NCBI RefSeq assembly: GCF_000152705.1
Contig: NZ_CH672413.1
Coordinates: forward strand, 3,314,862 to 3,378,861
Direction: 5' to 3'
DNA: 64,000 bases
Source of the DNA: Janibacter sp. HTCC2649
GTDB lineage: Bacteria > Actinomycetota > Actinomycetes > Actinomycetales > Dermatophilaceae
Shown: piece after piece, positions 111 to 63,337 of the stretch
How the letters are laid out: the number at the start of each line of letters is the position of its first letter
Position numbering within the stretch: the stretch's first letter is position 1
Position numbers and translations under genes: made by a program
The notes under the pieces: model-generated
Told to the model about the DNA's origin: nothing
The model's database searches: none
What the model saw: the letters and a program-made list of their open reading frames with translations, nothing else

Positions 111-1022
111 TCAGGTCGTGAGGTGGCGCTCGACGGCGACGATGCGCGCGTCCGCCCCGACACCGGCGACGTGGCAGACGAGCGCCTCGCCCTTGACGAG
201 GTTCTCGTCCTGCGCTGCGACGAACCGCTCGAGCGAGTCGACGGAGCCATCTCCCGCGAGATCGAGCCGCGTGCCCAGGGCTTCGAGCAGCGACCCCATC
301 ACCGGTCCGTGCGAGCACACCGCCGTCGGTTCACCGCGCTCAAGCACCCGCTCGATGTGCTGCTCCGCCTTGTCCGGGGCAGCCTCGTGGCCCTCCTCGG
401 ACAGACCTCTCTTGGCACGGGGCACGATCCCGAACCACACGGCATACGGGGAGATCGTGTCGAGACAACGCACGGACGGTGACGTGAGGATTCGTGAGAT
501 CCCGTATGCCGTGAGCACCGGGATGAGCCCATCGGCGCGTTCTCGTCCGCGCGCCTCGAGTGGGCGCTCGCGGTCGTCGCCCTTCCAGTCCGAGCGTGGG
601 ACGGCCTTGGCGTGCCGGACGATGATGAGCGGCCAGGTGTCGAGGGAGGCCTCGGTGTGGGCGCGCACGAGGGCGCGCAACTGTTCGCGGTCGTGGGCGT
701 AGTCGAGGCGCACGTTGGCCTCGACGACGTCGAGCCATGCGACTGCGTCGATCTCGTTCTCGAGCACGCCGCTGCCGCCGGTGACGGTGGAGGCCCAGTA
801 GCGGACGATCTTCTCGCCGGGCTCGCCCGCCTTGGTGAGCAGGAGGTAGCGGGCCTCGGGCAGGGGACGGCCGAGGCGCACCTCGAGCCCGGTCTCCTCA
901 AGCGTCTCGCGGGCGGCGGCAGTGCCCCAGTCCTCGCCCGGGTCGAGCTTGCCCTTGGGCCAGGACCAGTCGTCGTAGCGAGGGCGGTGGACGAGGGCGA
1001 CCTCGAGCACGCCGTCACGCAC
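111..1022 (-). CDS. mutT1: MutT1-like Nudix hydrolase fused to histidine phosphatase
   Basis: This two-domain protein probably cleans oxidised nucleotides (8-oxo-dGTP type) and hydrolyses related phosphates in the cytosol. Residues 24-46 carry a complete Nudix box (G-x5-E-x7-RE-x2-EE-x-G). The second half has the SixA/phosphoglycerate-mutase motif IVRHAKA. The Nudix-phosphatase fusion next to ppk matches mycobacterial MutT1 (Rv2985 beside Rv2984). The GTG at 1022 is the first ordinary start. However, the frame stays open upstream and encodes the family-like segment AAGTLPWR, so translation may begin earlier, for instance at a CTG at 1079 that overlaps the ppk stop. The function comes from family knowledge and is firm at domain level. 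Confidence 0.88.
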   Translation of the reverse strand: MRDGVLEVALVHRPRYDDWSWPKGKLDPGEDWGTAAARETLEETGLEVRLGRPLPEARYLLLTKAGEPGEKIVRYWASTVTGGSGVLENEIDAVAWLDVVEANVRLDYAHDREQLRALVRAHTEASLDTWPLIIVRHAKAVPRSDWKGDDRERPLEARGRERADGLIPVLTAYGISRILTSPSVRCLDTISPYAVWFGIVPRAKRGLSEEGHEAAPDKAEQHIERVLERGEPTAVCSHGPVMGSLLEALGTRLDLAGDGSVDSLERFVAAQDENLVKGEALVCHVAGVGADARIVAVERHLTT

Positions 1023-1075
1023 CCGCCACGGCAGCGTTCCTGCCGCGGGGATGACCTGGGATCGGGCCTGCGTAC

Positions 1076-3441: not shown

Positions 3442-4149
3442 TCAGCGCAGTCTGCCGCCGGCGAGCACCACCGTGCGCGCGGCAAGGGCATCGAGCGAGT
3501 CGACGACATCGGGCTCGTCGACCTTGAGGTCGGTCTGCAGGATGGACAGCTCGGTGCAGCCGAGCACGATGGCGCCGGCACCCTTGGTGCGCAAGTGCTC
3601 GACCGCAGCGTCGAAGCGGTCGCGGCTGACCGGCATACCCGCTTTGACTCCGTCGTAGATCATCGACATGACGTCCTTCTGGACGACGTCGTCGGGGGCG
3701 ATCGGTGTGAGCCCCGCAGCCTCGGCGGCCCGGTGATAGGTCTCCGCGCGCAGCGTGCCGTCCGTCGCGAGGATGCCCAGCGTCGTCAGCCCGGGCACGG
3801 CAGCCTTGGCGGCCTCGACCGTCACGGCGACGATGTCGATGACGGGAATGGTGACGGCGGCCGCGACCTCGTCCTGGAACGCCTGCGCGGTGTTGCACGG
3901 CAGCGCGATGAACTTGGCGCCGGCCCGCTCGAGCTCGCGTGCGTCCTGCGCCATCACCGGTCCGGGGCTCTCGTCACTGTCTCCGACGATGTATGCCGTG
4001 CGGTCCGGAATGCTGGCGTGGTTCCACACGAGCATGTCGACGTGGTCCTGGTCCCGGCCCGCATCCGTCATCTCGAGGACGCGCTGCATGAAGTAGACGG
4101 TGGCCATCGGGCCCACGCCGCCAAGAATGCCGACCGGTTCGTTGCGCAC
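3442..4149 (-). CDS. Aspartate/glutamate racemase family protein
   Basis: Members of this family interconvert L- and D-aspartate or D-glutamate through two catalytic cysteines. Both are visible, C85 in PCNTAQ and C198 in GCTELS. The length (235 residues) and the N-terminal glycine-rich GILGGVGPMAT motif fit the YgeA/RacD group rather than MurI. The GTG start at 4149 is supported by a TAGGCT box 6 nt upstream. The gene is divergent from a FemAB-like transferase and an ATP-grasp ligase. A D-amino acid made here could therefore feed a peptidoglycan cross-bridge, but that link is inference from neighbourhood. Substrate choice cannot be read from sequence. Confidence 0.85.
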   Translation of the reverse strand: MRNEPVGILGGVGPMATVYFMQRVLEMTDAGRDQDHVDMLVWNHASIPDRTAYIVGDSDESPGPVMAQDARELERAGAKFIALPCNTAQAFQDEVAAAVTIPVIDIVAVTVEAAKAAVPGLTTLGILATDGTLRAETYHRAAEAAGLTPIAPDDVVQKDVMSMIYDGVKAGMPVSRDRFDAAVEHLRTKGAGAIVLGCTELSILQTDLKVDEPDVVDSLDALAARTVVLAGGRLR

Positions 4150-4155
4150 GCTTCG

Positions 4156-4298: not shown

Positions 4299-5525
4299 GT
4301 GGCACTGTCGGCCCTGTCCCTCACCGAGCGTGAGCACGACGATTTCGTTCGTGACCACCCCAACGGGCACCTCATGCAGACGACGCCGTGGGGCAAGGAG
4401 AAGGAGCACACCGGCTGGACCTGGAAGACGGTCGCCGTGGGCCGCAAGGGCGCCGGACCGGATGGCGCCGACGAGGTCACCGGCGCAGCGCTGATCCTCT
4501 TCCGCCGCACCCCGGTCGTGCCGATGGCCCTAGCCTACTGCCCGCGTGGGTTCGTCGTCGACTGGGCAGATGCCGAGGCGGTCGACGCGCTGCTCGCCGA
4601 GGTCACCAAGGTCGCCAAGGAGAACCGTGGCGTCCTCCTGCGCATCGACCCGGCCGTGCGCATCGACAACCCCGACATCCGGCCGGCCCTCGAGTCGCGT
4701 GGCTTCACCCGCACCGACCCGGGCGACGACGCGGCCAAGACGCTCGCCCAGCCGGCGCTGCGCATGGTCACCGACATCAGCGACCTCGAGGCCCTGCACA
4801 AGGACCTCACCCAGGGCACGCGCCAGTCGATCCGCAAGGCCGAGAAGTCTGGCCTCGTCTACGAGTCGGTCGGTCGCGACAAGATCCCCGCGTTCTACGA
4901 GCTCATGAAGACGACCGGTGCGCGCGACGGCTTCGGCATCCGCAGCATGGAGTACTTCACGACCCTCTACGACGTACTCTCACCGACCGACGACATCGTC
5001 ATCTCGCTCGTCAAGCTCGACCACGGTGCTGCGGCCGAGGCAGCCCGCGCCAAGCTCGAGGACCTGCGCGGTCAGCTCGAGAAGGCAGCGGCCAAGCGCG
5101 AGAAGTACCCCTCCGAGAAGGCCGACCGCCAGGTCGCCGGACTCGAGGAGAGCATCGAGAAGAACGAGGGTTCGGCCGCCGAGTTCGAGGCATCGCACGC
5201 GAAGCACCCCGATGGCCAGTACCTCGCCGGCTCGGTCTTCGCGACGTGCGGCACCCGCGGCTCCTACCTGTATGCCGCGAGCTCCGACGAGCACCGCAAC
5301 CTGCGCCCGAACTACCTCATGGTCTGGCAGATCATGCAGGACGCGGCGGCCAAGGGCGTGACGACCTTCGACTTCGGTGGCATCGACGCGTCCGAGGGGC
5401 TCGAGGAGTTCAAGCGCCAGTGGAACCCGGAACGACGCGAGTATGCCGGTGAGTTCACCAAGCAGCTCCGTCCCCTTTCCGGTCGGCTCATCGACCTTGC
5501 CGTCCGCGTCTACAAGCGCCGCTGA
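4299..5525 (+). CDS. FemAB-family peptidoglycan bridge aminoacyltransferase
   Basis: FemABX enzymes add amino acids from aminoacyl-tRNA to the stem peptide of lipid II at the inner face of the membrane. The 408-residue protein has two GNAT-like halves. A charged helical arm lies at about residues 240-310, where a stretch rich in Glu, Lys and Ala looks coiled-coil. The late block containing FDFGGI and FKRQWNP is typical of the family. The GTG at 4299 has AGGAG just upstream. An ATP-grasp ligase starts 12 nt after the stop, so the two are probably co-transcribed. This supports an interpeptide bridge built by tRNA-dependent and then ATP-dependent ligation. The amino acid added is unknown. Confidence 0.9.
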   Translation: MALSALSLTEREHDDFVRDHPNGHLMQTTPWGKEKEHTGWTWKTVAVGRKGAGPDGADEVTGAALILFRRTPVVPMALAYCPRGFVVDWADAEAVDALLAEVTKVAKENRGVLLRIDPAVRIDNPDIRPALESRGFTRTDPGDDAAKTLAQPALRMVTDISDLEALHKDLTQGTRQSIRKAEKSGLVYESVGRDKIPAFYELMKTTGARDGFGIRSMEYFTTLYDVLSPTDDIVISLVKLDHGAAAEAARAKLEDLRGQLEKAAAKREKYPSEKADRQVAGLEESIEKNEGSAAEFEASHAKHPDGQYLAGSVFATCGTRGSYLYAASSDEHRNLRPNYLMVWQIMQDAAAKGVTTFDFGGIDASEGLEEFKRQWNPERREYAGEFTKQLRPLSGRLIDLAVRVYKRR

Positions 5526-5537: not shown

Positions 5538-6878
5538 ATGCCAAGGACACAGCCTGAGAGCTCGTATGAATCTGTAGCCGACCAGCCGTTCGTTCCCGTG
5601 ATCGTCGGTGCCCACGTCGGTGGGTACTCGTTGGTGCGTGCCTTCCATGAGGAGTACGGCGTGAAGTCGCTCGTCGTGAGTGGCGCGACGTCGTGGGTCG
5701 TCGAGAACTCCGCGATCCTCGAAGTGGTCACGTGCTCCGACGCCCACGACCCCGAGGCCTTGGCGGCCACCCTCAAGTCCTCGGGCTTTGCCGAGCTCTC
5801 GCAGCCCAAGATCCTTCTCGCGACCTCGGATGCCCTCGTCGACGTCATCGACGCCATGCGCGACCAGCTCGACGACTCGTGGAAGGTGCCCTACGTCCGG
5901 GCCGAGATCCTGAAGCGAGCGACGCGCAAGCACACCTTCGAGAAGGCGGCCCTGGCGGCGGGCGTCTCGATCCCGACCACGACGATCATTGACCTGGCCG
6001 AGAATTCACAAGGAACGGCATACACCGTTTCTGATGGTGGTCAGATCCCGACGCAGGGCTATCCGCTCATCCTCAAGCCCACGGCGCCGCGGGCCTGGAA
6101 CCTCGTGAAGTTCGAGGGCCAGGCGAAGGTGCACGAGGTCGCGTCCGCCGACGAGTTGCGCGACCTGCTCGACCGCATCCACGGGTCGGGCTATCGCGCC
6201 AAGCTGATCCTGCAGGACATGATCCCGGGCGACGACACGGGCATGCGGATCCTCACCTGCTACTGCGACAAGAACTCGCAGGTGCGCTTCGCGTCCTACG
6301 GCCGGACCCTCATCGAGGAGCACTCACCCGGACTGATCGGTGTGCCGGCCGCGATCCTCACCGGCCAGAACCGCGAGATCGTCGACGAGTCCGTGCGCCT
6401 GCTGGCCGAGCTCAAGTGGGTCGGCTACGCCAACTTCGACCTCAAGTACGACCCGCGCGACGGGAAGAGCAAGTTCTTCGAGCTCAACCCGCGGCTGGGG
6501 CGCTCCAACTACTACGTCACCGGGACCGGCTTCAACGCGGTCAAGTGGTACGTCGATGAGTACGTCCACGACAACCTCCCCGACGAGTTCGAACTCATCG
6601 AGGCCGACACCGAGACGGTCTACTCGGTCGTCCCGGTGCGGACGATCAAGTGGGCTCTCGCCCGTCACCCCGAGCTGTGGGCGCGGGTGCAGCGAGTCAT
6701 CAAGGCCGGTGGGTTGCGCAACCCGATGCACTACAAGGCCGAGAAGCATCCGGTGCGGTGGGCCAAGATCCTCGCGGCGGGCGTGAGTTACGACCGCAAG
6801 TTCCACCAGTACTACGACCCCGAGGCGGCCTTCCACCCCGGCGGCGAGGCCGCGGACTCGGACCTCCCTCGACGCTGA
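5538..6878 (+). CDS. ATP-grasp carboxylate-amine ligase (D-aspartate ligase-like)
   Basis: ATP-grasp enzymes join a carboxylate to an amine through an acyl-phosphate. This 446-residue protein resembles the group containing the D-aspartate ligases that complete peptidoglycan bridges. It has an N-terminal Rossmann-like region (PVIVGAHVGGYSLVRAF). The central ATP-grasp core includes YPLILKPTAPRAWN, KLILQDMIPGDDTGMR and the metal-binding end FFELNPRLGRSNYY. It follows the FemAB gene by 12 nt and converges on murJ. Together with the nearby racemase it fits a bridge ending in D-Asp or D-Glu, though the substrate is inferred from neighbours only. Confidence 0.82.
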   Translation: MPRTQPESSYESVADQPFVPVIVGAHVGGYSLVRAFHEEYGVKSLVVSGATSWVVENSAILEVVTCSDAHDPEALAATLKSSGFAELSQPKILLATSDALVDVIDAMRDQLDDSWKVPYVRAEILKRATRKHTFEKAALAAGVSIPTTTIIDLAENSQGTAYTVSDGGQIPTQGYPLILKPTAPRAWNLVKFEGQAKVHEVASADELRDLLDRIHGSGYRAKLILQDMIPGDDTGMRILTCYCDKNSQVRFASYGRTLIEEHSPGLIGVPAAILTGQNREIVDESVRLLAELKWVGYANFDLKYDPRDGKSKFFELNPRLGRSNYYVTGTGFNAVKWYVDEYVHDNLPDEFELIEADTETVYSVVPVRTIKWALARHPELWARVQRVIKAGGLRNPMHYKAEKHPVRWAKILAAGVSYDRKFHQYYDPEAAFHPGGEAADSDLPRR

Positions 6879-8727: not shown

Positions 8728-9660
8728 CTACGGCGCGGTCGGACGTCCGTAGACGACGTGGATGGCGGCGTCCTCGAAGCCCGCGCGCCGATAGGTCGCG
8801 AGCGCACGCGTGTTGTCGCCGTCGACGTAGAGGTCGATCGTGTCGACGCCCTGACGGGCGAGGTAGGCGGTGCCGAGTCCCGTGAGTGGTCCGGCAAGAC
8901 CACGACCTTGGTATGCCGGGTGCACGCCTACGACGTACACCTCTCCGGTTCTTGAGCCGGGTTCCCGCTTGGTCCAGTGCGAGGCCGCGAGCGGATGGCC
9001 ACCGTCGGCATCGGTCACTGTCGTGTCCTCCACGAGGAAGAGGCCAGCGGGGTCGAACCAGTCCTGGGCCATGCGGTCCTGCAGGTCCTCGAGGGTGATC
9101 GAGCCCTGCTCAGGATGGGTCGCGAAGGCCAGCGCGTTGACCTCGAGCCAGGCCTGCTCGTCACGCCCGAGCTCGAACGTCCGCGCCGAAAAGCCCTCTG
9201 GGAGAACAGGATCGACTTCGTCGCCCGGCGCCACGTCTCGCGCCATGACATGAAGCTCGCGGGTCGAGACCAGACCCTCGGCGGCGGCCAGGGCCTGGGC
9301 AGCTGGCAGATCGCCATGAGCCCACACACCCGTCGCCGACCCGGGCACGAAGTCGGAGTCGAACAAGGCGTGGAGCAGCTCCCGGCCCACGCCCTGCCGG
9401 CGCGCATCCGGGTCGACGACGAGCTCGGCGGAGCCACCGGAGTCCACCGCCGCGTAGCCGAGCAGGTCCTCGGAACGCGACTCACCGGCATACGCCACAA
9501 GGTGTGAAACGTCGCCATGGGCGGAGGTGAGGGCAAGTCGGAAGGCCTCCGAGATGGCCTCGACGCCGTCGGCGTCGGCAGCACGCGCAGCCAACGCGAG
9601 GACGTCAGCAGCCACGGTCCCATCGAGGTGGGAGGACGTCTCGAGGCGGACGGAGGTCAC
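8728..9660 (-). CDS. mshD: Mycothiol synthase (MshD)
   Basis: MshD acetylates the cysteine of Cys-GlcN-Ins with acetyl-CoA, the last step of mycothiol synthesis. The 310 residues form two tandem GNAT domains. The C-terminal, catalytic one has the acetyl-CoA loop [13 protein letters not shown] followed by [19 protein letters not shown]. The N-terminal one keeps a similar [12 protein letters not shown] loop. The GTG start overlaps the stop of the glnR-like gene by four bases (GTGA), so translation is probably coupled. The same glnR-mshD order occurs in mycobacteria (Rv0818-Rv0819). mshA lies 12 kb away in this window. Confidence 0.93.
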
Positions 9661-11557: not shown

Positions 11558-11580
11558 CCACACGGCATACGCCGTCGTGG
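11558..11580. terminator. Hairpin containing CGGCATAC, between convergent genes
   Basis: CCAC-ACGGC-ATAC-GCCGT-CGTGG folds into a short hairpin whose stem and loop are the motif CGGCATAC followed by GCCG. It lies between the ends of the membrane protein gene and the DsrE gene. Confidence 0.5.
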
Positions 11581-11586: not shown

Positions 11587-11964
11587 TCAGTAGACGATCG
11601 CTTGCGCGTCCGGTCGCAGGATTTCTTCGACGTATGCCGCGGCGCCCCTGATCGTCGCGCCGTCCAGCAGGTCGTCGGGGGAGAGGTCACGCCGCGCCGC
11701 GCACTGGCCGCAGACCGTGACGGTGGCACCCGCGAGCAGGGCGTCGCGCAACTCGTGGAGCGGGGCACCGTGGGGGAGTGAGAGCTGTTCGGCGCGACCG
11801 GCCACGGCCACCCAGGTCGCGTCGCCGGTGAGCCACAGGCTGACCTCAGCGCCGGCTGCGACGGCCGTCGCAGCCACGGTGAGCCCCTGGTTGAGGCGTT
11901 CGAGCTCCTCGGCGCCACAGGTGATCTTGACGACGAGCGGTCGGATGGTCGAGGCATTGGCCAT
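11587..11964 (-). CDS. DsrE/DsrF-like family protein
   Basis: DsrE-like proteins are small cytosolic folds that often carry sulfur on a conserved cysteine. This 125-residue protein has the typical alternation of strands and helices. Near the C-terminal half it has CGQCAARRDL, where a Cys-x2-Cys pair could be the sulfur-handling site, and an early cysteine (KITCGAEE). The ATG at 11964 is preceded by GGAGGA. The divergent neighbour is a nitrobindin-like protein and the convergent one an unknown membrane protein, so context adds little. No partner sulfurtransferase is adjacent. Confidence 0.75.
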   Translation of the reverse strand: MANASTIRPLVVKITCGAEELERLNQGLTVAATAVAAGAEVSLWLTGDATWVAVAGRAEQLSLPHGAPLHELRDALLAGATVTVCGQCAARRDLSPDDLLDGATIRGAAAYVEEILRPDAQAIVY

Positions 11965-11999: not shown

Positions 12000-12509
12000 G
12001 TGGCCTTCCATCTCGACACAGACCTCCCGCCCGAGCTCGCCCCCCTCGCTTGGCTTGTCGGCAAGTGGGTCGGTGCCGGCGTCGTCGGCTACCCCACGAT
12101 GGAGTCGGCGAACTTCGGCCAGGAGATCATCTGCGCCCACGACGGGCGGCCGTTCCTCGAGTGGCGCAGCCAGTCCTGGCTCCTCGACGACGCGGGCGAG
12201 AAGGTCCGCCCGCTCGCGACCGAGGTCGGCTTCTGGCGTCCCGTGCCCGAGAGCGAGGACGGCACCAACGTCGAGCTGCTCCTGGCGCACCCCACCGGTT
12301 TCGTCGAGATGTATGCCGGGCACGCCCAGCCGGCCAAGGTCGAGCTGCGCACCGACGGTGTCATGCGCAGCCCGCACGCCAAGGAGTACACCGCGGCGCA
12401 CCGGATGTACGGCTACGTGACGTCCAACCTCATGTGGGTCATGGACATGGCGGCCATGGGCCAGCCGCTGACCTCACACCTCTCGGCGGAGCTCAAGCGC
12501 GTCGAGTAG
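12000..12509 (+). CDS. Nitrobindin-like heme-binding beta-barrel protein
   Basis: Bacterial nitrobindins are ten-stranded beta-barrels that hold heme and scavenge or isomerise reactive nitrogen species. The 169-residue sequence has the diagnostic GxWxGxG motif as GKWVGAGVVGYP near residue 22. The C-terminal half carries HRMYGYVTSNLMWVMDM, which includes a candidate heme-ligand histidine. The length matches mycobacterial Rv2717c. The GTG start is fixed by the upstream TACGAT box and by the family start. It is transcribed alone. The older database name FABP-like refers to the same fold. Confidence 0.85.
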   Translation: MAFHLDTDLPPELAPLAWLVGKWVGAGVVGYPTMESANFGQEIICAHDGRPFLEWRSQSWLLDDAGEKVRPLATEVGFWRPVPESEDGTNVELLLAHPTGFVEMYAGHAQPAKVELRTDGVMRSPHAKEYTAAHRMYGYVTSNLMWVMDMAAMGQPLTSHLSAELKRVE

Positions 12510-13575: not shown

Positions 13576-13608
13576 GGTGCGCATGCTGGGCCATCCGGCC
13601 GACCGGCA

Positions 13609-13614
13609 TACATT
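13609..13614 (+). promoter_or_regulatory. Leaderless-type -10 box of fur, overlapping CGGCATAC
   Basis: TACATT lies 6 nt before GTG 13621. Its first bases are shared with a CGGCATAC copy at 13604-13611. Confidence 0.6.
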
Positions 13615-16590: not shown

Positions 16591-16637
16591 TGTCAAACCC
16601 AAGCACGCGGCATACTCCGTCTCAGTCCCCAATCCCA

Positions 16638-20535: not shown

Positions 20536-21327
20536 GTGCGCCAGTGGGGAGTGCGCGGCCGCGGCCGCGACGTGAGTCGGAGCATGGTGGCGCTCGTCGT
20601 CTCCGTGGCAGCCGCTCTTGCCCTGGGTCTCGCCACCTGGCTGCCCGGTGTGCTGCGCACGGACATCGGTCTCGTCCCGGTCGACCCGGGGTTGCTCACC
20701 GTCAACGAGAGCGCGCGGGGGATTGCCACGCTCGGGCGGGGCTACACGGTCGCGGCCTACCAGTCCGGCTTCCGCGTCTCGGCAGCTTCCGGCACGCTGG
20801 TCGACACCATCACTCGCGGATCACCGGTGAGCGCCGTCCTCGGCCACCTCGGGGAGCGTGAGGACCACCCCATCGAGAACGTCGAAGCCACCCTCGACCA
20901 CGTGCGCATCGACGAGGTGGACATCGAACCCGGCCGCGCGGCATACACCGGTGAGGTCTATGACGACGTCGACGGACAGCGACGCACGATGCCGCTCCGT
21001 CTCGTCTTCCTGCTCACCACGGCGGGAGTGCACGTGACCGCGGACATCCAGGGCGCCGACGCGGTGATCATCCACCTCGATGCCCTGCCAGGGACGACCG
21101 GTATCGATCCGGCCCTGCCCACGCACAACCTGCGCCTTCGTGGCTGGTGGGTGGTCGCGAAGTCGGGGGAGCAGCAAGCCTTCACCACGGCCCGCAAGGC
21201 CGTCGTCGGCATCGGCCCGGCCATCAGGACCCGCGGGCTCGACCTGCGGCCCGACGGCCGGCTCGACATCCATGTGTGGTCCGAGCGGGCGACCCTCACC
21301 CTCAGCGGTGTGCCCGACGCGGGTTGA
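20536..21327 (+). CDS. Hypothetical membrane-anchored protein
   Basis: I do not recognise a family. The 263 residues begin with an Arg-rich stretch and one membrane segment (about residues 17-40, [20 protein letters not shown]), then a soluble, probably external, beta-rich domain. There is no lipobox and no clear cleavage site, so an N-terminal anchor is likelier than secretion. It starts at GTG 20536, 6 nt after a TAGGCT box, and ends 23 bp before mshA, so it may share a transcript with mshA. No cysteine is present. Confidence 0.72.
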
Positions 21328-40945: not shown

Positions 40946-41059
40946 GCCAGCATGCCGTATGCCGTGGCTCCTGTCACTCCCCTGTCTCACCGCAGGGGTG
41001 GTCGGCCGGTCTCACCGCAGGGTGATGGCGTAACTCTGGCGCGGGCACGCGCGGACCAC

Positions 41060-48348: not shown

Positions 48349-48415
48349 GTCACATCAGCCACACCAGTCACACCTGGTTCGGCGATTCGGACAGGTTTCT
48401 CGCAGGCTCACGGCA

Positions 48416-48421
48416 TACCGT
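48416..48421 (+). promoter_or_regulatory. Leaderless-type -10 box of the kinase gene, overlapping CGGCATAC
   Basis: TACCGT lies 6 nt before ATG 48428. CGGCATAC occupies 48411-48418, sharing the first three bases of the box. Confidence 0.6.
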
Positions 48422-48427: not shown

Positions 48428-50179
48428 ATGACTGCCGAAATCCTTGACGACTCGGGTGGGAGGGACGGCCTCCCCGAGCACTCGCTGCTCGGGTCCTACC
48501 GTCTCGTCCAGCGACTCGGCGAGGGTGGCATGGGTGTCGTCCACCTCGGACTCGACCGCCACGGCAAGGCCGTCGCGATCAAGGTGCTGCGACCACACGT
48601 CGCGCATGACCCCGCAGCCCGCGCTCGACTGACGCGCGAGGTCGAGACCCTGCGCCGGATTCGCAGCCCTCGCGTCGCCCCGGTCATCGACGCCGACGTC
48701 GATGGGGAGCGGCCCTTCATCGTGACGCGCTACGTTCCCGGCCCGCCGCTGGACGAGGTCGTCAGTGCTCATGGGCCGATGGGTCCCGATGACCTCCACC
48801 GCCTCGGGCGCGGCCTCGCCGAAGCGCTTGACGTCATCCACGCCAGCGACGTCATCCACCGTGACCTCAAACCGGGCAATGTCCTCATCGTCGACGGCGA
48901 TCCCGTCGTCATCGACTTCGGCATCGCCCACGTCGCCGACGACATCCGCCTCACCATGACCGGCCTCGTCATGGGTACGCCCGGCTACCTTGCACCCGAG
49001 GTCGTCGAGGGTTCTCCCGTGTCGACCGCAACCGACTGGTGGGGTTGGGCGGCCACCCTTGCGTATGCCGCGTCGGGACGTCCGCCCTTCGGTCGCGGTC
49101 CGATGGACGCCGTTCTCACCCGCGTCACCACCGGTGAGCCCGACCTCGCGGGCGTCGACAAGCGCATCGCGCCCCTGCTGTATGCCGCTCTCGCTCCCGT
49201 TCCTCAGGACCGCCCGCACCAGCGCGAGGTCGTGGCGGCTCTCGAGAAGTATGCCCACGGCGGCCTTGTCACCGACATCATCAAGGTGCGCCGTCCGACG
49301 CCACCCACCCAGGCGTTGGCGATGCCCCGAACCGCCGTGCTTCCCTTGTCCCGCAACCGGACTCAGCCCTCTCGCCCAGCAGTCGCTCCCGCCGTGATGC
49401 CAGCCGTCGTGCCCTTGGTGGCGCAGCGTCCCACCCCGGCGGAGGCGCTCTTCGGCCCCCCGCTCGGTGCGCCGCAGGTGGCGCCGGAACGACAACTGGA
49501 GCACCCGGCATACCCTCCGCAGGAACCCGGCCAGAACGACTGGGACGCCGCCAGGGACGGCCAGCCACTGATCGACCCGCGCATCGGTCGGCAGAGCCGC
49601 AGTGGCACGGTCGCCGCCCTGCTCGCCGTGCTCGTCGCGACAGCAGCCACCGCCCCAGTCGTGGCCGCGATCGGGCTGCTCGTGTGGATCGTGCTCGCGC
49701 GCACTGCCGACCGTTCGGTGACCTCCCTGATCATGCGCAGGCACGACAAGGGGCGGCGTCGCAGTGACATTCCGGTCGCGGTGGTGGCCAGCCCGTGGCA
49801 CTTCCTGGTGGGCGTCATCAGCTCGCTGTTCGGCGCGATCATGCCGGCGCTCATGGCCGTGTCGGGTGTGTTCTGTGCGGCGCTGGCCGTCGTCGCCATC
49901 CAAGGGACTGGGTCGCCGGAGCCCGATGCTCTCGCACCCCTCGCCGTGGGTGGCCTCCTCGCCGGGCTGATGGCGTGGTGGGGCCCGGGTGGCGCCAGCC
50001 TGCGCCGCGGCACCCGCAGCATCGTTCGGGGGGTGAGTCCCGGCCCGAGCGTGAGTCGCGTCCTCGTCCTCCTCCTGCTCGTCGGCGCGGTCGCCGTGGC
50101 GGCAGCGGGTGTCGTCAACGGCCAGCCGTCGTGGTGGCCGACCGGGACCTCGTGGGCCGACCAGCTCAACCTGCCGTGA
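48428..50179 (+). CDS. Membrane Ser/Thr protein kinase with four C-terminal helices
   Basis: Hanks-type kinase of 583 residues. The glycine loop is GEGGMGVVHLG near residue 30, the ATP lysine is in VAIKVLR, the catalytic loop is HRDLKPGNV near 140, then DFGIAH, and the activation segment reads GTPGYLAPE with a Thr available for autophosphorylation. A Pro/Ala-rich linker of about 120 residues follows. The C-terminus holds about four membrane helices and no PASTA or other external sensor, unlike PknB. The stop overlaps a ThrE-type exporter (GTGA), so the kinase could regulate that transporter, by inference. Confidence 0.9.
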   Translation: MTAEILDDSGGRDGLPEHSLLGSYRLVQRLGEGGMGVVHLGLDRHGKAVAIKVLRPHVAHDPAARARLTREVETLRRIRSPRVAPVIDADVDGERPFIVTRYVPGPPLDEVVSAHGPMGPDDLHRLGRGLAEALDVIHASDVIHRDLKPGNVLIVDGDPVVIDFGIAHVADDIRLTMTGLVMGTPGYLAPEVVEGSPVSTATDWWGWAATLAYAASGRPPFGRGPMDAVLTRVTTGEPDLAGVDKRIAPLLYAALAPVPQDRPHQREVVAALEKYAHGGLVTDIIKVRRPTPPTQALAMPRTAVLPLSRNRTQPSRPAVAPAVMPAVVPLVAQRPTPAEALFGPPLGAPQVAPERQLEHPAYPPQEPGQNDWDAARDGQPLIDPRIGRQSRSGTVAALLAVLVATAATAPVVAAIGLLVWIVLARTADRSVTSLIMRRHDKGRRRSDIPVAVVASPWHFLVGVISSLFGAIMPALMAVSGVFCAALAVVAIQGTGSPEPDALAPLAVGGLLAGLMAWWGPGGASLRRGTRSIVRGVSPGPSVSRVLVLLLLVGAVAVAAAGVVNGQPSWWPTGTSWADQLNLP

Positions 50180-51630
50180 GCGACGCAGACCGTCGCCGCC
50201 GGGCCTGGCGCCTGCAGGGCGGGCCTCCGACCGAGCCCATGCCGCTCGTCGACCTCCTGCGACGCACCCCTTATCGCAACGCCCGGGTCGCCATCGAGGC
50301 CGCGGAAGAGGCGCGCGTGCGCGAGGCCCTCGACCTTGCCGTGCGCCTTGGTGAGCTCATGTTGCGCTCCGGCGCCGGGGCACCCCAGGTCGAAGGGTCT
50401 GTCGCCGCGGTGTGCGCCGCGGCCGGGCTGACCAATGTCGAGATCGACATCACGCTGCAGTCGTTGCTCGTCCACGCGCGCGTCGACGCCGTGCACGCGG
50501 TGACGGAGCTGCGGGTCGTGCGCTCGACGCGCCACGACTACGCCCGGCTGGTGGCGGTGCACGAGCTGGTCGACGCGTTCGTCAGCGGCCACATCGAGCT
50601 TCCGGAAGCCGTCGAGCAGCTGCGCGACATCAAGCGTGCTCGGCGCATCTGGCCCGACTGGTCGGTGACGGCGGCGACGGCGGGGCTCGCTGCGGCTGTG
50701 GCCGTGATGATCGGGGCAACGCTCTTCACTGCTGCGATCACGGTCCTCGTGGTCCTCGCTGTGTCGGCCGTCTCGCGATTGATGCAGCCCATCCATCTGC
50801 CCGACTTCTACTCGAACGCCGTGAGCGCCTTCATCGCGACGGTGCTCGCCTGGGTGGCGTATGCCTTGGGTGCCCAGGGATGGATTCCGTTGGGGGGCAA
50901 GGACTTTGCCTTCATCGTGGCCGGCGGCATCGTTGCCTTGCTTCCGGGGCGGACCATGGCTTCCGCGGTCGAGGACGTCATCTCTGGCTATGCGGTGACC
51001 GGCGCCGGACGGCTGCTCGCCGTCATGGTGTCGCTCACCGGAATCATCATCGGCGTCGCGGTGGCGCTGGGCACGACGATCCGGCTCACCGAAGCGCTGT
51101 CGTTCACCTTCGTCTCACCGTCGGTGCTCGACCTGCGCACGACCCAGGCGGAATGGTGGGCATCGGTCATTGGTGTCTTCATCGTGGGTGCCTGCGGGTC
51201 CATGACGATGCAGACCTTGCGCCGGTTGGTGCTGCCGACCGCGGCTCTGGCCGTGGGCGCAGGAAGTGTGTATGCCGTGCTGACTCGCCTTTTCGATGTG
51301 GGCGCCGTGACGGCGACGGGGCTGGCCGCCGTCACGCTCGGTCTGGTGGGCCGGCTCGTGGCCCTGCGTCTGGGTGCGCCGGCCATGGTGGTCGTCGTGC
51401 CTGCGAGCTTTGGGCTGCTGCCCGGTCTGACGATCTTCCGCGGCCTCTATGAGCTCGTCGGCCAGAACGCCACGGACATCGGGACGCTCTCCTTCCAGGC
51501 CGGTGTCGCGACCCTGCTCGGCGCGGCCGGTGTCCTGCTCGCCATCGCCACGGGGACGACCCTCGGCGAGATCATCGCTTCGCCCTGGGATCGTCGCGTG
51601 GCCCGGGTGCGCCGGCGTGCCCGCGTCTGA
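50176..51630 (+). CDS. thrE: Threonine/serine exporter family protein (ThrE)
   Basis: ThrE exports threonine and serine using the proton gradient in Corynebacterium. The 484-residue protein has the soluble N-terminal domain with LRSGAGAPQVEGSVAAVCAA, common to ThrE and YjjP proteins. About ten membrane helices follow, in two halves split near residue 320. It starts at GTG 50176, overlapping the kinase stop, so the two are stoichiometrically coupled. The longer frame to 49795 is a shadow. Actual substrate and direction are family knowledge only. Confidence 0.9.
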   Translation: MSDADRRRRAWRLQGGPPTEPMPLVDLLRRTPYRNARVAIEAAEEARVREALDLAVRLGELMLRSGAGAPQVEGSVAAVCAAAGLTNVEIDITLQSLLVHARVDAVHAVTELRVVRSTRHDYARLVAVHELVDAFVSGHIELPEAVEQLRDIKRARRIWPDWSVTAATAGLAAAVAVMIGATLFTAAITVLVVLAVSAVSRLMQPIHLPDFYSNAVSAFIATVLAWVAYALGAQGWIPLGGKDFAFIVAGGIVALLPGRTMASAVEDVISGYAVTGAGRLLAVMVSLTGIIIGVAVALGTTIRLTEALSFTFVSPSVLDLRTTQAEWWASVIGVFIVGACGSMTMQTLRRLVLPTAALAVGAGSVYAVLTRLFDVGAVTATGLAAVTLGLVGRLVALRLGAPAMVVVVPASFGLLPGLTIFRGLYELVGQNATDIGTLSFQAGVATLLGAAGVLLAIATGTTLGEIIASPWDRRVARVRRRARV

Positions 51631-55085: not shown

Positions 55086-55317
55086 GCGCGTCGGCGAGCT
55101 CTCACCCCCGACGGCGACCCGAACTTTACCTGTCGCTGGCCGTCGTGCCCTCATCGTCAGCCCGGCCAGCACTGCAGGTCTCACTGGTCCATGTCGTTAC
55201 CGCTGATCCGTGGCCCTGCAGCGGCATGGATCAGCGAGAACGCCATGGGCGACCCGGCCAACCGCGGGCCGGCGGCCGGGGCGCGGACGGGGGCGGACGG
55301 CATACCCCGTCCGTCCC

Positions 55318-55329: not shown

Positions 55330-56673
55330 GTGACGCGACCCCTACGACGCCAGATCCACGACATCGGGCGACGTCGTGCGTGGACGATCTGGGTCGTCGC
55401 GCTCGCGGTCTACACGGTCGCGATCTTCCACCGCACCTCCCTTGGCGTCGCGGGACTCGTTGCGGCCGAACGCTTTGACATCACCGCGTCCCAGCTCGCG
55501 ACGTTCACGGTCCTCCAACTCGTCGTGTATGCCGGGATGCAGATTCCCGTGGGCGTCCTCCTCGACCGCTTCGGGTCGCGTCGCCTGCTGCTCGTCGGGC
55601 TCACGCTCATGACGGCCGGACAGCTGTGGTTCGCCTTCGCGGACAGCTACGCGATGGGGCTTGCGGCGCGCGTCCTGCTCGGCATCGGCGACGCCATGAT
55701 CTTCACGAGCATGCTGCGGCTGGTCGCGTTGTGGTTCCGGGTCAAGCAGGCGCCGATCATCACGCAACTGAGCGGCATGGTCGGGCAGCTGGGTGCGGTT
55801 GCCGCGGCCACGCCGCTGGCGCTTGCTCTCGATCGTTGGGGCTGGGAGCGGTCCTTCTCGATCACCGCAGGCTCCGGCGCCCTGCTCCTCGTCGCCCTCT
55901 TCTTCGTCGTCAAGGACTCGCCCTACACCGGTGAGGCCGTCGAGAAGATCAAGGTGCGTGCCCTCGCCCGAACCCTCGGCGAGGTGTGGGGCAACCCCGG
56001 CACGCGCCTGGGCATGTGGATTCACTTCACCGGTCAGTTCGGTGCCACGGTGTTCACGATGCTGTGGGGCTACCCGTTCCTCGTCGAAGGGCAAGGGCTC
56101 AGCCCGGCCGTCGCCGGCGGGCTCCTCATCACGCTCACCCTCTCGTCGATGGTCGCGGGGCCGATCATCGGCCACCTCACCGGGCGCCTGCCCTACCGCC
56201 GCTCGCAGATCGTCCTGTGCATCGTGGCCGCCATCGTCACCGTGTGGGCCGTCGTCCTCCTCTGGCCCGGTCGCGCCCCGTTGCCGCTGCTCGTCCTGCT
56301 CGTGTGCGTCATGGCGTTCGGCGGGCCGGGCTCGATGGTCGGCTTCGACCTCGCCCGCAGCTTCCACCCCTCCGACCGGTTGGGTCGGGCGACGGGCGTC
56401 ATCAACATCGGTGGCTTCTTTGCCTCGCTCGTGACGATGGCCCTCATCGGGCTGATCCTCGACCACCGCGCGCCGGGCGGTCCGGGAACCTACACGCTCG
56501 ACGACTTCAAGGTCGCGATGTCGGTGCAGTTCCTGCTCTGGGGCCTGGGCTCAGTGCAGATCTGGCGCTACCGCCACAAGGGTTTGTCGTTCGTCGACGA
56601 ACACCCGGGCGCCCTGGATGCGCTGCGAGCCGGCGACACGTTGCTGCCCGGCATCTCGCGCGATCCCGACTGA
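55330..56673 (+). CDS. MFS transporter
   Basis: The 447-residue protein has 12 likely membrane helices of the major facilitator fold. The loop between helices 2 and 3 has the family motif VLLDRFGSRRLLLVG near residue 75, and a central cytosolic loop (about 195-225) separates the two halves. The region AARVLLGIGDAMIFTSMLR resembles the proton-coupling helix of many antiporters. Substrate cannot be named; general resemblance is to metabolite and organic-acid carriers. It is a single-gene unit with a leaderless-type promoter and is divergent from the tRNA. Confidence 0.88.
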   Translation: MTRPLRRQIHDIGRRRAWTIWVVALAVYTVAIFHRTSLGVAGLVAAERFDITASQLATFTVLQLVVYAGMQIPVGVLLDRFGSRRLLLVGLTLMTAGQLWFAFADSYAMGLAARVLLGIGDAMIFTSMLRLVALWFRVKQAPIITQLSGMVGQLGAVAAATPLALALDRWGWERSFSITAGSGALLLVALFFVVKDSPYTGEAVEKIKVRALARTLGEVWGNPGTRLGMWIHFTGQFGATVFTMLWGYPFLVEGQGLSPAVAGGLLITLTLSSMVAGPIIGHLTGRLPYRRSQIVLCIVAAIVTVWAVVLLWPGRAPLPLLVLLVCVMAFGGPGSMVGFDLARSFHPSDRLGRATGVINIGGFFASLVTMALIGLILDHRAPGGPGTYTLDDFKVAMSVQFLLWGLGSVQIWRYRHKGLSFVDEHPGALDALRAGDTLLPGISRDPD

Positions 56674-57557: not shown

Positions 57558-58718
57558 TCAGCGCAGGATGTGGCGGCTGATGACGAGCCGCTGGATCTGG
57601 TTGGTGCCCTCGAAGATCTGGGTCACCTTTGCCTCGCGGAACATGCGCTCCACCGGGAAGTCCTGCGTGTATCCCGCGCCGCCGAGCACCTGCACCGCAT
57701 CCGTCGTCACCTTCATCGCCGCGTCGGTGGCGAGCAGCTTGGCCACTGCCGCCTCCTTCGAGAACGGGCGTCCGGCGTCCTTGAGGCGCGCGGCATACAG
57801 GTAGGCCGCCCGTGCCCCCGAGACCGCAGCCTCCATGTCGGCGATCATGAACGCGAGTCCCTGGTTGGCCGCGATCGCGCGCCCGAACTGCTGCCGTTCC
57901 TTGGCGTAGGCCGCGGCCGCGTCGAGCGCCGACTGCGCCAATCCCGTTGCGCCGGAAGCGATTCCGAGCCGACCGGCGTCCAGTGCGGACAGTGCGATGG
58001 CCATGCCCTGGCCCTCGTCGCCGATGCGGTTGGCCTCCTCGACGGGCACACCGTCGTAGATGACCTCGCGCACCGTGTCGCAGTGCAGGCCCATCTTCTT
58101 CTCCGGCGCACCGAAGGTCATCGCGTCCGACCCGGCCGGGACGATGAAGCACGAGAGGCCGCGCCCGCCGTCATCGGAGGTGCGCGCAAACGTCGTGTAG
58201 TAGTCGGCGTGACCGGCGTGCGAGATCCAGGCCTTGCGGCCCTTGATGGCGTATGCCGCGTTGTCACCGTCGCGCGTCGCTCGCGTGGTCATTGAGCCGA
58301 CATCAGAACCGGCGAGCGGCTCGGAGAGGGCGTAGGCGCCGAGCTGGTCACCCGAGAGCATCCCGGGCAGGAGGGCAGTCTGCTGCTCCGGTGTCCCGAA
58401 CGTCGTCACCGGATAGGCGGTGAGCGAGTGCACGGAGACCCCGACCGCGACGCTCATCCATGCCGAGGCGATCTCCTCGACCACCTGGAGGTAGACCTCG
58501 TAGGGCTGCCCGCCGCCACCGTGCTCCTCGGGGTGGGGGAGGGACAGCAGTCCGGCCCGACCCAGGGTGCGGAAGATCTCGGTGGGGAACTGCTCGTCCG
58601 TCGCCGCCGCGCGTTCGGCCTCGTCAACGCGCGGTCGCAGCTCCTTGTCGCAGATCTCGCGGGTGAGCTCGATGAGATCGTGACCCTCATCGGTGGGCAG
58701 AAGGCGATTGACCGGCAT
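57558..58718 (-). CDS. Acyl-CoA dehydrogenase
   Basis: FAD-dependent dehydrogenase that introduces the alpha-beta double bond in acyl-CoA thioesters. The 386-residue protein has the FAD-binding strand block GAYALSEPLAGSDVGSM, the YAIKGRKAWIS segment, and the C-terminal QVLGGAGYTQDFPVERMFRE followed by the catalytic-base region QIFEGTNQIQ with Glu. It fits the short-branched or glutaryl-like bacterial FadE group; exact chain preference is unknown. The ATG lies in a GTATGCCG word (58720-58713) and has a TACAGT box 7 nt upstream. Confidence 0.93.
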   Translation of the reverse strand: MPVNRLLPTDEGHDLIELTREICDKELRPRVDEAERAAATDEQFPTEIFRTLGRAGLLSLPHPEEHGGGGQPYEVYLQVVEEIASAWMSVAVGVSVHSLTAYPVTTFGTPEQQTALLPGMLSGDQLGAYALSEPLAGSDVGSMTTRATRDGDNAAYAIKGRKAWISHAGHADYYTTFARTSDDGGRGLSCFIVPAGSDAMTFGAPEKKMGLHCDTVREVIYDGVPVEEANRIGDEGQGMAIALSALDAGRLGIASGATGLAQSALDAAAAYAKERQQFGRAIAANQGLAFMIADMEAAVSGARAAYLYAARLKDAGRPFSKEAAVAKLLATDAAMKVTTDAVQVLGGAGYTQDFPVERMFREAKVTQIFEGTNQIQRLVISRHILR

Positions 58719-58725
58719 ACGCGCG

Positions 58726-60774: not shown

Positions 60775-61269
60775 GTGCCCGTCACGAGCATCGACAAGAA
60801 CGTTGACGACCACTCGATCGTCGTCACCTCTGACTTCCCCGCTCCGGTCGAGCGCATCTGGCAGCTGTGGTCCGACCCGCGCCAGCTCGAGCAGTGGTGG
60901 GGCCCGCCGACCTACCCGGCCACGGTCTCCGACTTCGACTTCGTGCCCGGTGGTCGTGTCGGCTACTTCATGACCAGCCCCGAGGGTGAGAAGTACGGCG
61001 GGCTCTGGACCCTCGACTCCATCGAGGCGCCCCACCGGCTCACCTTCCAGGATGCCTTCGCCGACGACAGCGGCAACCCCGCAGAAGGTATGCCGGTCGG
61101 CACCTGTGTCGTCGAGCTCACTGAGCGTGACGGCGGGACCCGCATGGTCACGACGACGACCTACGGCAGCGCCGAGGACCTCGCGAAGGTTGTCGGGATG
61201 GGCATGGAGGAAGGCCTCACCGGAGCCATTGGCCAGATCGACGACATCCTCGCCGCCGAAGCCGCCTGA
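60775..61269 (+). CDS. SRPBCC/AHSA1-type ligand-binding protein
   Basis: The 164-residue START-like fold has a deep hydrophobic pocket typical of AHSA1 proteins. It opens with SIVVTSDFPAPVERIWQLWS and has the conserved WWGPPTYPATV strand and LWTLDSIEAPHRLTFQDAF. Many ArsR-SRPBCC pairs occur in actinobacteria; the ligand and role are unknown, and such proteins are thought to be self-regulated through their repressor. The GTG at 60775 has AAGGAG upstream; the frame open to 60658 overlaps the repressor gene. Confidence 0.88.
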   Translation: MPVTSIDKNVDDHSIVVTSDFPAPVERIWQLWSDPRQLEQWWGPPTYPATVSDFDFVPGGRVGYFMTSPEGEKYGGLWTLDSIEAPHRLTFQDAFADDSGNPAEGMPVGTCVVELTERDGGTRMVTTTTYGSAEDLAKVVGMGMEEGLTGAIGQIDDILAAEAA

Positions 61270-61772: not shown

Positions 61773-62270
61773 ATGACCACTCCAGCCGCCGTCACCACTT
61801 CGCGAGTGCAGCTCGCCCTCAACGTCGTCGACCTCGAAGCGTCCATCGCCTTCTACTCGGCGATGTTCGGCGTCGAGCCCGCGAAGCGCCGCCCCGGCTA
61901 CGCGAACTTCGCCGTTGCTGAGCCGCCCCTCAAGCTCGTCCTCATCGAGACCACCGAGGAGCAGCGCGGCACGGGTGCTGCGGGGGCGCTGAACCACCTG
62001 GGCGTCGAGGTCTCCTCCGTCCAGGGCGTCACTGCCGCCCGCGAGCGCTTCGCCGATGCCGGCCTGGCCGCCTTCGACGAGAACGACACGACCTGTTGCT
62101 ACGCCCTCCAGGACAAGGTCTGGGTCCACGACCCGGCCGGTGCCCCGTGGGAGGTCTACACCGTCAAGGATGAGAACCCCGTGGACGCGCGCCCGGCCAC
62201 CGCGAGCCTCGAGGTCCTCGACGTCTCCGCCTCAAGCAGTGGAGCCGCCTGCTGCACCACCAACGCATGA
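61773..62270 (+). CDS. arsI: ArsI/CadI-family VOC protein (organoarsenical C-As lyase-like)
   Basis: ArsI breaks the carbon-arsenic bond of trivalent methyl- and aryl-arsenicals using Fe(II). The 165-residue VOC protein has the family's vicinal cysteine pair in DTTCCYALQDKVWVHDP, metal-binding His in NHLGVEV and Glu in PWEVYTV, and a further C-terminal Cys pair (GAACCTTNA). The ATG at 61773 has GGGAAGG upstream. It overlaps acr3 (ATGA) and sits in an arsenic operon, which supports the role. CadI-like cadmium-induced proteins share the fold and are the alternative. Confidence 0.85.
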   Translation: MTTPAAVTTSRVQLALNVVDLEASIAFYSAMFGVEPAKRRPGYANFAVAEPPLKLVLIETTEEQRGTGAAGALNHLGVEVSSVQGVTAARERFADAGLAAFDENDTTCCYALQDKVWVHDPAGAPWEVYTVKDENPVDARPATASLEVLDVSASSSGAACCTTNA

Positions 62271-63337
62271 GCACGACGGCAACGCGCCCACCCGACGAGG
62301 TGGTCACCGCTCGTCTCTCGACCCTCGATCGGTTCCTGCCAGGGTGGATCGGCGTCGCGATGATCGCGGGGCTCCTCCTCGGCCGGATGGTGCCCGGTCT
62401 CGGCACGGCCCTGAGCGCGGTCGAGGTCGATGGGGTGAGCCTGCCCATCGCCGTCGGGCTGCTCGTGATGATGTATCCGGTCCTGGCCAAGGTGCGATAC
62501 GACCGGCTCGGCTCGGTGACCGGTGACCGGCGGATGCTCGGCGCGTCGCTCGTCCTCAACTGGATCATCGGGCCGGCACTCATGTTCGCCCTGGCCTGGC
62601 TGCTGCTCCCCGATCTGCCGGAGTACCGGACGGGCCTGATCATCGTCGGGCTGGCTCGGTGCATCGCCATGGTGATCATCTGGAATGACCTCGCGTGCGG
62701 GGATCGCGAGGCGGCAGCGGTGCTCGTGGCCCTGAACTCGATCTTCCAGGTCCTGGCCTTCGGTGTTCTCGGGTGGTTCTACCTGTCGTGGCTGCCGGAC
62801 CGGCTCGGCCTCGAGCAGGCCAGTCTCGAGATCTCCTCCTGGAAGATCGCCGGGAGCGTCATCGTCTTCCTCGGGATGCCGCTGGCTCTCGGGTACCTGT
62901 CGCGCAAGGTGGGCGAAAAGCGCTGGGGGAGAACGGCATACGAAGAGTCATTCCTGCCTCGAGTAGGGCCGTGGGCCCTCTACGGACTGCTCTTCACGAT
63001 CGTCATCCTTTTTGCGCTGCAGGGTGACCAGATCACGTCACGACCTTGGGATGTCGCTCGGATCGCACTCCCGCTCCTGGCCTACTTCGCCCTGATGTGG
63101 GGTGGCGGCTTTGCGCTCGGGCGTGGGCTCGGCATGACCTACGAGCGCACGACGACGCTGGCCTTCACAGCGGCGGGCAACAACTTCGAGCTGGCCATCG
63201 CTGTTGCCATCGCCACCTTCGGGGTGACCTCGGGCCAAGCGCTCGCGGGAGTCGTCGGACCGCTCATCGAGGTGCCGGTTCTCGTCGCGCTCGTCCATGT
63301 CTCGCTCACTCTCAGAAAGCACTTCCGCCATGCCTGA
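62267..63337 (+). CDS. acr3: ACR3-family arsenite efflux transporter
   Basis: Acr3 pumps arsenite out of the cell using the proton gradient. The 356-residue protein has ten likely membrane helices and the family's conserved GLARCIAMVIIWNDLACGD near residue 127, where the cysteine is essential in studied members, plus FTAAGNNFELAIAVAIA in a late helix. It overlaps arsI and arsC, so the operon is tightly coupled. It is often named arsB, but the sequence family is ACR3, not the E. coli ArsB type. Confidence 0.93.
   Translation: MSTTATRPPDEVVTARLSTLDRFLPGWIGVAMIAGLLLGRMVPGLGTALSAVEVDGVSLPIAVGLLVMMYPVLAKVRYDRLGSVTGDRRMLGASLVLNWIIGPALMFALAWLLLPDLPEYRTGLIIVGLARCIAMVIIWNDLACGDREAAAVLVALNSIFQVLAFGVLGWFYLSWLPDRLGLEQASLEISSWKIAGSVIVFLGMPLALGYLSRKVGEKRWGRTAYEESFLPRVGPWALYGLLFTIVILFALQGDQITSRPWDVARIALPLLAYFALMWGGGFALGRGLGMTYERTTTLAFTAAGNNFELAIAVAIATFGVTSGQALAGVVGPLIEVPVLVALVHVSLTLRKHFRHA

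Follow-up and report, generated by a model that had tools for sequence, protein, structure and literature searches.

Self-recognising uptake of DNA has, to our knowledge, been reported for just two families, both Gram-negative and both equipped with type IVa pili. Uptake sequences have been described for the Neisseriaceae (PMC3630211) and the Pasteurellaceae (PMC12616744), and these systems are compared here with an 8-mer, GTATGCCG, found in a 64-kb stretch of the genome of Janibacter sp. HTCC2649 (the window, i.e., the whole stretch of DNA analysed). The DNA uptake sequence (DUS) of the Neisseriaceae is a short word present in thousands of copies, in genes as well as in gaps, with species dialects (PMC3630211), and GTATGCCG resembles it in each of these respects. 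Inverted DUS pairs lie at terminators (PMC3630211); inverted pairs, with a predicted hairpin, were also found here. Unlike in the Neisseriaceae, the word is another one, its bearers are Gram-positive actinobacteria, Tad/Flp genes take the place of type IVa pilus genes, and no ComP-like receptor was found. The uptake signal sequence (USS) of the Pasteurellaceae is predicted to be recognised by a minor pilin (PMC12616744), and a pilus pseudopilin is the candidate here too. The word, the lineage and the pilus are nevertheless all different. A USS also combines a core word with weaker flanking preferences, as does the word described here.

The candidate uptake genes are like those of Flp-pilus transformation in Micrococcus luteus, with counterparts of comEA, comEC, tad-1 and tad-2 (PMC4322843; PMC6370729). 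Unlike in the present case, where a word exists, the term 'uptake sequence' occurs 0 times in the main text of the M. luteus paper PMC4322843. The initial annotation had likened the 8-mer both to uptake sequences and to the HIP1 word of cyanobacteria, and the first half of this comparison is supported. HIP1 is likewise a genome-wide over-represented 8-mer, but it fits less well, being a palindrome, whereas GTATGCCG differs from its reverse complement and has spelling variants. The open-access literature in PubMed Central, covered by titles and abstract openings, yielded no uptake sequence for actinobacteria. The observations below are best read as an uptake-sequence system that evolved independently and that is, as far as known, the first such case among Gram-positive lineages; we consider it likely that GTATGCCG is a DNA uptake sequence with dialects.

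In the window, GTATGCCG occurs in 28 plus-strand and 24 minus-strand copies, the first beginning at position 440 and the last finishing at 62941; this exact count reproduces that of the initial annotation. The strong over-representation claimed there against a hand estimate of 2-3 copies was confirmed by a third-order Markov model fitted to the window, under which 1.96 copies are expected (z 35.7, the top score among all 8-mers). Single-base variants are scarce, with 0-6 copies each. The copies listed below are exact GTATGCCG matches, labelled as lying in a coding sequence (CDS) or intergenic according to the gene calls.

440..447, minus, copy in CDS
504..511, plus, copy in CDS
3631..3638, minus, copy in CDS
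3991..3998, plus, copy in CDS
5270..5277, plus, copy in CDS
5441..5448, plus, copy in CDS
6016..6023, minus, copy in CDS
8911..8918, plus, copy in CDS
9486..9493, minus, copy in CDS
11563..11570, minus, intergenic copy
11632..11639, plus, copy in CDS
12311..12318, plus, copy in CDS
13604..13611, minus, intergenic copy
14477..14484, plus, copy in CDS
14572..14579, minus, copy in CDS
16608..16615, minus, intergenic copy
18393..18400, minus, copy in CDS
18697..18704, plus, copy in CDS
19813..19820, plus, copy in CDS
20939..20946, minus, copy in CDS
22637..22644, minus, copy in CDS
23162..23169, plus, intergenic copy
26143..26150, plus, intergenic copy, left arm of a strong hairpin predicted for this inverted pair (with 26157)
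26157..26164, minus, intergenic copy, right arm of the hairpin begun at 26143
28470..28477, plus, copy in CDS
29103..29110, minus, intergenic copy
29785..29792, plus, intergenic copy
34204..34211, plus, intergenic copy
34660..34667, plus, copy in CDS
34713..34720, minus, copy in CDS
38251..38258, minus, copy in CDS
39707..39714, minus, intergenic copy
40957..40964, plus, intergenic copy
41789..41796, plus, intergenic copy
43402..43409, plus, copy in CDS
44063..44070, minus, copy in CDS, inverted pair with 44082
44082..44089, plus, copy in CDS, inverted pair with 44063
45118..45125, plus, copy in CDS
45237..45244, minus, copy in CDS
47025..47032, plus, copy in CDS
48411..48418, minus, intergenic copy
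49063..49070, plus, copy in CDS
49180..49187, plus, copy in CDS
49506..49513, minus, copy in CDS
51270..51277, plus, copy in CDS
55298..55305, minus, intergenic copy
55527..55534, plus, copy in CDS
57791..57798, minus, copy in CDS
58251..58258, plus, copy in CDS
58713..58720, minus, copy across a CDS edge
61088..61095, plus, copy in CDS
62934..62941, minus, copy in CDS

Across the 4,235,068 bases of the genome (7 contigs), GTATGCCG was counted 2982 times (1486 forward, 1496 reverse), a mean of about one site per 1.4 kb across the whole chromosome, versus 59 copies (35 + 24) of the reversed word, i.e., background level. Against the Markov expectation the excess is milder (346 copies versus 13.9 expected in 444 kb of this genome) than against the reversed word (2982 versus 59), and the count lies far above the expectation by either yardstick. 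The initial annotation had also raised the question of whether the window might be peculiar. It is ordinary for its genome, as its density of 0.81 per kb is typical of the 0.50-1.05 per kb seen in 19 of 20 sampled 20-kb chromosome stretches; the remaining stretch, with 0.05 per kb, apparently falls within a mobile element.

The placement of copies was analysed in the same 444 kb, excluding stretch L002, with genes called by a simple custom caller. Genes held 244 copies (0.63 per kb) and intergenic DNA 97 (1.78 per kb, a 2.8-fold higher density), and 5 copies lay across gene edges. Within genes, 196 of the 244 copies fall in Tyr-Ala or Ala-Tyr codon pairs, and the word overrides codon choice. 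In the frame G-TAY-GCC-G (Tyr-Ala), TAT was used in 119 of 127 cases, whereas Tyr-GCC pairs outside this frame had it in 35 of 163; in the frame CG-GCN-TAC (Ala-Tyr), GCA accounted for 77 of 119 cases versus 0 of 168 elsewhere; and in the frame C-GGC-ATH-C (Gly-Ile), the rare ATA was found in 29 of 72 cases versus 2 of 494 elsewhere. Amongst aligned GTATGCCG sites, 76 of 111 were identical in congeners, compared with 16-32% of other 8-mers. This count covers the comEC and tad-1 regions of eight congeners at 80-86% DNA identity, leaves out 85 unalignable comparisons, and may include one site of this genome in several relatives.

Copies are spaced more evenly than random (mean 3.91 and variance 2.04 in 88 bins of 5 kb), and close neighbours are predominantly inverted: 11 inverted and 0 direct pairs at up to 30 bp, and 24 inverted and 7 direct at up to 100 bp. 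A strong hairpin (26143-26164) is predicted for the inverted pair at 26143 and 26157. No strand polarity along the chromosome was detected over 20 stretches (165 plus and 181 minus copies; chi2 11.1, 20 degrees of freedom; origin and terminus were not located). Beyond the core, the copies have only weak flanking preferences in common. In this genome, intergenic flanks are A-rich from -12 to -5, have almost no A at +8, and favour C at +14 (65%) and T at +18 (48% of 97 intergenic copies versus 17%). Flanks are weaker outside the genus, where +8 is the clearest position, and consistency across genera is limited mainly to the missing A at +8 in the GTATGCCG group.

DNA of recent acquisition contains few copies of the word. 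The elements that interrupt comEC or the tad-1 ATPase gene (described below) held 5 copies versus 38.8 expected from the word density of each host genome, over 7 stretches and 59 kb in five word-bearing genomes; an element in G137, kept outside this sum, had zero copies in the two stretches inspected. Janibacter sp. HTCC2649 itself carries a mobile element of about 51 kb (L143:5654-20000, L144, L002 and L145; C1 about 148.6-200 kb, limits set by eye), which held 3 copies versus 36.2 expected. Its cargo includes a TraG/VirD4-type coupling protein, a DnaG-type primase, a Tad-like cluster of its own and metal-type genes.

The distribution of the word was followed in 149 genomes from 53 genera (G-numbers denote genomes and g-numbers genera) of a family that we take to be the GTDB Dermatophilaceae, i.e., relatives of Janibacter and Intrasporangium. 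Among the LeuS matches listed, the protein of Janibacter sp. HTCC2649 shared 74% identity with that of Janibacter indicus, 70% with Intrasporangiaceae bacterium URHB0013, 68% with Ornithinicoccus and with a Micropruina metagenome genome, and 67% with Austwickia, Ornithinimicrobium, Jiangella and genomes of Streptomyces type. Per genome, GTATGCCG numbers about 500-4700 in many genera and about 10-100 in many others, with some intermediate, and the strands are near-equal throughout. Amongst 273 genomes from 19 other families of the order, no genome exceeded 177 copies (the reversed word of the top genome stood at 135), and counts remained within about 4-fold of the reversed control. Beyond the order, the comparison covers 80 listed loci, mostly from Streptomyces or close kin. 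In shorter stretches, Intrasporangiaceae bacterium URHB0013 had 10 copies of GTATGCCG in 23 kb, Ornithinimicrobium sp. CNJ-824 had 6 in 18 kb, and Janibacter indicus had zero in the 18 kb examined.

Several genera without GTATGCCG carry a one-letter variant instead, namely GGATGCCG, GTACGCCG, GTATGDCG or GAATGCCG, so that the word or a one-letter dialect is shared across many genera of the family. Whole-genome counts of GGATGCCG reached 3816 and 3838 in g17 and 3949 in g26. In g44 they were 4480 (G103), 3619 (G118), 2195 (G044) and 2099 (G079), and the last two genomes add 1217 and 1189 copies of GTATGCCG, i.e., two spellings in one genome. GTACGCCG was found 3903, 2111 and 4185 times in g40, 2618, 2366 and 785 times in g48, 2216 times in G023, 1359 times in G024, and 2529 and 1125 times in two of four g3 genomes; G069 has 1463 copies of GTACGCCG, whereas its congeners G025 and G096 use GTATGCCG. 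Austwickia sp. TVS 96-490-7B had 7 copies of GTACGCCG in 11.8 kb. GTATGDCG and GAATGCCG were first seen in 20-kb samples and then counted genome-wide, in 27 and 23 genomes, respectively. Relative to its reversed form, GTATGDCG stood at 4011/617 in G027, 3747/884 in G003, 5477/870 in G070 and 1249/203 in G099, and it was near the control in wordless G125, of the genus of G099 (45 versus 37), and in Janibacter sp. HTCC2649 (110 versus 113). For GAATGCCG, 3135 copies in G012 and 730 in G051 compare with 17-388 in the other 21 genomes searched; this spelling was judged between genomes because its reversed control is poor (4 reversed versus 99 forward-read in Janibacter sp. HTCC2649). Among the genome-counted dialects, word positions 1, 3, 5, 7 and 8 are constant and positions 2, 4 and 6 vary. 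One 20-kb sample from g47 held 6 copies of GTATGCCC versus 0.2 expected.

Weak excesses of GGATGCCG and GTACGCCG were not called dialects because their background is high (about 115-1340 in genomes classed as wordless). In a quick ComEC tree of 60 genomes, which lacks G014 (the gene caller found no ComEC there) and includes G054 as a partial sequence, GGATGCCG turns up at two distinct points and GTACGCCG at three or more, amid GTATGCCG users. Two genomes of g2, G001 and G134, show modestly elevated GGATGCCG (1336 versus 310 and 1210 versus 280 for the reversed word). As g2 adjoins g44, which uses GGATGCCG as its main word, on this tree, the rise is possibly a decaying relic. Separately, GTACGCCG occurred 23, 17 and 15 times in 17-23 kb of Hamadaea (L124), Plantactinospora (L097) and Streptomyces ochraceiscleroticus (L062), respectively; these raw counts, taken without a background model, could reflect codon preference.

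The competence genes suggested for checking in the initial annotation were found in Janibacter sp. HTCC2649, which carries comEA (SLBB and HHH domains) followed by comEC, and two Tad clusters. Amongst the family genomes, comEC was present in 145 of 149, wordless ones included, and T2SSE/Tad-type ATPases scored above the cut-off in 146 of 149 (weak extra matches resemble ClpC). Merely having ComEC or some Tad-type ATPase was discarded as a predictor of the word, since both are nearly universal and do not discriminate. A type IVa pilus was likewise rejected as the uptake machine, since PilM (PF11104) was detected in only 5 of 149 genomes and not in that of Janibacter sp. HTCC2649.

Two recurrent Tad clusters, B and C, were recognised in six genomes inspected closely. 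Cluster C (C1:1367323-1371920 in Janibacter sp. HTCC2649) comprises tadA, tadB, tadC and genes for Flp-like, TadE, TadF-like and TadG-like proteins; of its two pseudopilins scanned, only TadE had a Pfam match. Cluster B includes a TTAEYAVG-type Flp. A comparison by eye of gene order and of the N-termini of the pseudopilins matches clusters C and B to M. luteus tad-1 and tad-2, both of which are needed for transformation in that organism (PMC4322843; PMC6370729). The Tad sets of G014 and G026 are incomplete.

The tad-1 (cluster C) ATPase has a clear orthologue in most family genomes, and its presence is associated with the word. In the 131 genomes that are at least 90% complete, 11 of the 13 without this ATPase were wordless, compared with 29 of the 118 having it whole or in pieces (Fisher p = 3e-5). 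Word status was assigned by hand from the GTATGCCG, GGATGCCG and GTACGCCG counts with weak cases taken as bearing, and dropping these gave p = 5e-5. Stated conversely, 2 of the 91 near-complete genomes that bear the word lack the orthologue, split copies being counted as present. Six genera lacked the tad-1 ATPase in every sampled genome (g7, g14, g15, g41, g45 and g49, three of them represented by a single genome), and all were wordless. The 29 wordless genomes that keep the gene might have unspecific uptake, have lost the receptor or competence, or use another spelling.

Mobile elements are known to block transformation by insertion into competence genes (PMC4774983), and comparable interruptions were observed in this family. 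The tad-1 ATPase gene is split in seven genomes, its halves lying about 4 to 79 kb apart. The breakpoints, at residues ~203-207 or 223-232, fall within the nucleotide-binding loop and shortly beyond it. A large serine recombinase adjoins the split in six of the seven, and the recombinases of these elements in several genera (L186, L188, L189, L191, L193, L194 and L195) are 33-77% identical to that of L188. In the G129 split (L187, C1:411000-430000), no recognisable serine recombinase was found in the 14 kb between the halves; a 465-aa protein inside it appears transposase-like by eye. ComEC is truncated near one spot (residues ~256-267 of the Janibacter sp. HTCC2649 protein) in five genomes. 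The junctions in four of them carry serine recombinases that all belong to one family (51-59% identity). This is a second family, and its elements (L197, L198, L199 and L200) include some that look phage-like by eye. Both comEC halves were seen only in G080, 40 kb apart, and the gene in the fifth genome, G095, stops at a contig edge. Other comEC breaks are frameshift-like (G090) or lie close together (G089). Both genes are interrupted in G146, and interrupted genomes include word-bearing and wordless ones. Insertions in both genes would agree with a common function of ComEC and the tad-1 ATPase in transformation. These cases are like the insertions in Listeria comK and streptococcal comYC and comFA, where phage-like or other elements interrupt competence genes (PMC4774983), but differ in having comEC and the tad-1 ATPase gene as targets and serine recombinases at the junctions; 'tad' occurs 0 times in the main text of that paper.

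The most likely receptor candidate is a minor pseudopilin of tad-1, TadE or TadF. Models of two tad-1 pseudopilins (mean predicted local distance difference test scores of 89.1 and 88.5) show a long helix and a small sheet, and one of the proteins has a cysteine pair that is invariant in 19 sequences. Fold searches with the two models gave no match at E <= 0.001, and profile searches against solved structures returned no match for one pseudopilin and a single one (E 0.67) for the other. The receptor is put forward only by inference because no dialect-specific residue was seen and no fold matched.

From these patterns we infer that the word is bound by a protein, which protein the binder may be, and that uptake bias would be the origin of the word. 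A surface protein of a Tad/Flp competence pilus would bind word-bearing DNA, and DNA of kin would thereby enter preferentially through ComEA and ComEC and recombine into the chromosome. If word-bearing fragments are imported more often, recombination would restore and spread the word (molecular drive), which would accumulate at harmless synonymous and intergenic sites. Drift in receptor specificity would rewrite the word into one-letter dialects, and loss of the pilus would lead to its decay. The uptake-type signature proposed in the initial annotation gains support from the dialects, the conversion of synonymous sites, the even spacing, the strand balance, the inverted pairs, the scarcity in mobile DNA and the association with competence genes. 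In its fullest form, this explanation is that of an independent, family-wide uptake sequence read by a Tad/Flp pseudopilin, whose at least five co-evolved spellings act as exchange barriers between genera and which serine-recombinase elements counter through disruption of comEC and of the tad-1 ATPase gene; we regard this combined proposal as probable.

Other explanations of the word were weighed against uptake. A DNA methyltransferase acting on the word, or a bias of repair or mutation that keeps it in place, with dialects following changes in the recognition domain, appears an unlikely origin. A sequence-specific enzyme could shift its specificity and so give one-letter variants, and an origin in methylation, repair or mutation bias has been proposed for HIP1 in cyanobacteria. 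Neither an enzyme nor such a bias would predict the even spacing, the inverted pairs or the mostly wordless state of genomes without the pilus ATPase, and the intergenic flank preferences in Janibacter sp. HTCC2649 reach well past 8 bases, as with the T at +18. Restriction systems, moreover, usually cause avoidance of their sites and not a large excess. We give little credence to a site for a chromosome-organising or segregation factor, be it a nucleoid protein or a site like KOPS (FtsK-orienting polar sequences), Chi or matS. An evenly spaced site every ~1.4 kb over the whole chromosome would suit such a factor, but whole genera of the family are without the word, two spellings per genome and the tad-1 association are not readily explained, and there is no polarity along the chromosome. 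As KOPS and Chi sites need strand polarity, these two were rejected on the lack of strand heterogeneity noted above. A dispersed repeat or a by-product of codon or oligonucleotide bias is extremely improbable. The concentration of genic copies in Tyr-Ala and Ala-Tyr codon pairs would agree with a bias, but the codons used (TAT, GCA and ATA) are otherwise rare ones, density peaks between genes and the reversed word is at background; its 59 copies and the codon override rule out an artefact of base composition or codon usage. Repeats of the dispersed or repetitive extragenic palindromic (REP) type were dismissed as well, since copies have no extended sequence in common beyond the short core with its weak flanks.

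Several points weigh against the uptake explanation itself. Any selection at the DNA level would likewise yield conservation and codon override. Having the machine is not enough to predict the word, because 29 of the 118 near-complete genomes with the tad-1 ATPase are wordless. Conversely, two of the 13 without it, G065 and G047, do bear the word; both have congeners that possess the gene. The association test takes kin genomes as independent, relies on word status assigned by hand and includes split or partial genes among those present. The depletion in the ~51-kb element of Janibacter sp. HTCC2649 is not an independent test, as the element was noticed through its missing word, and the argument from insertion targets is weak because only comEC and the tad-1 ATPase gene were screened, with no control genes. 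Finally, comparison of tad-1 pseudopilins across dialects by eye revealed no residue that tracks dialect, and no receptor was found.

Apart from the word, the window contains two intergenic-looking clusters of the palindrome TTGCGCAA (6897-6987 and 32293-32353), with copies 25-41 bp apart and a REP-like appearance; several of these copies are embedded in TTGCGCAATAAGTCGG or its reverse complement.

If the uptake explanation is true, this family would provide a third, unrelated case of self-recognising DNA uptake, in a Gram-positive lineage and with a different pilus, which would mean that uptake specificity evolves repeatedly. It would also predict naturally transformable actinobacteria together with their DNA tag. 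The dozens of genera that bear or lack the word, its dialects and the mixed genomes provide material for studying the origin, respelling and death of such signatures, and the dialect swaps offer a route to the receptor.

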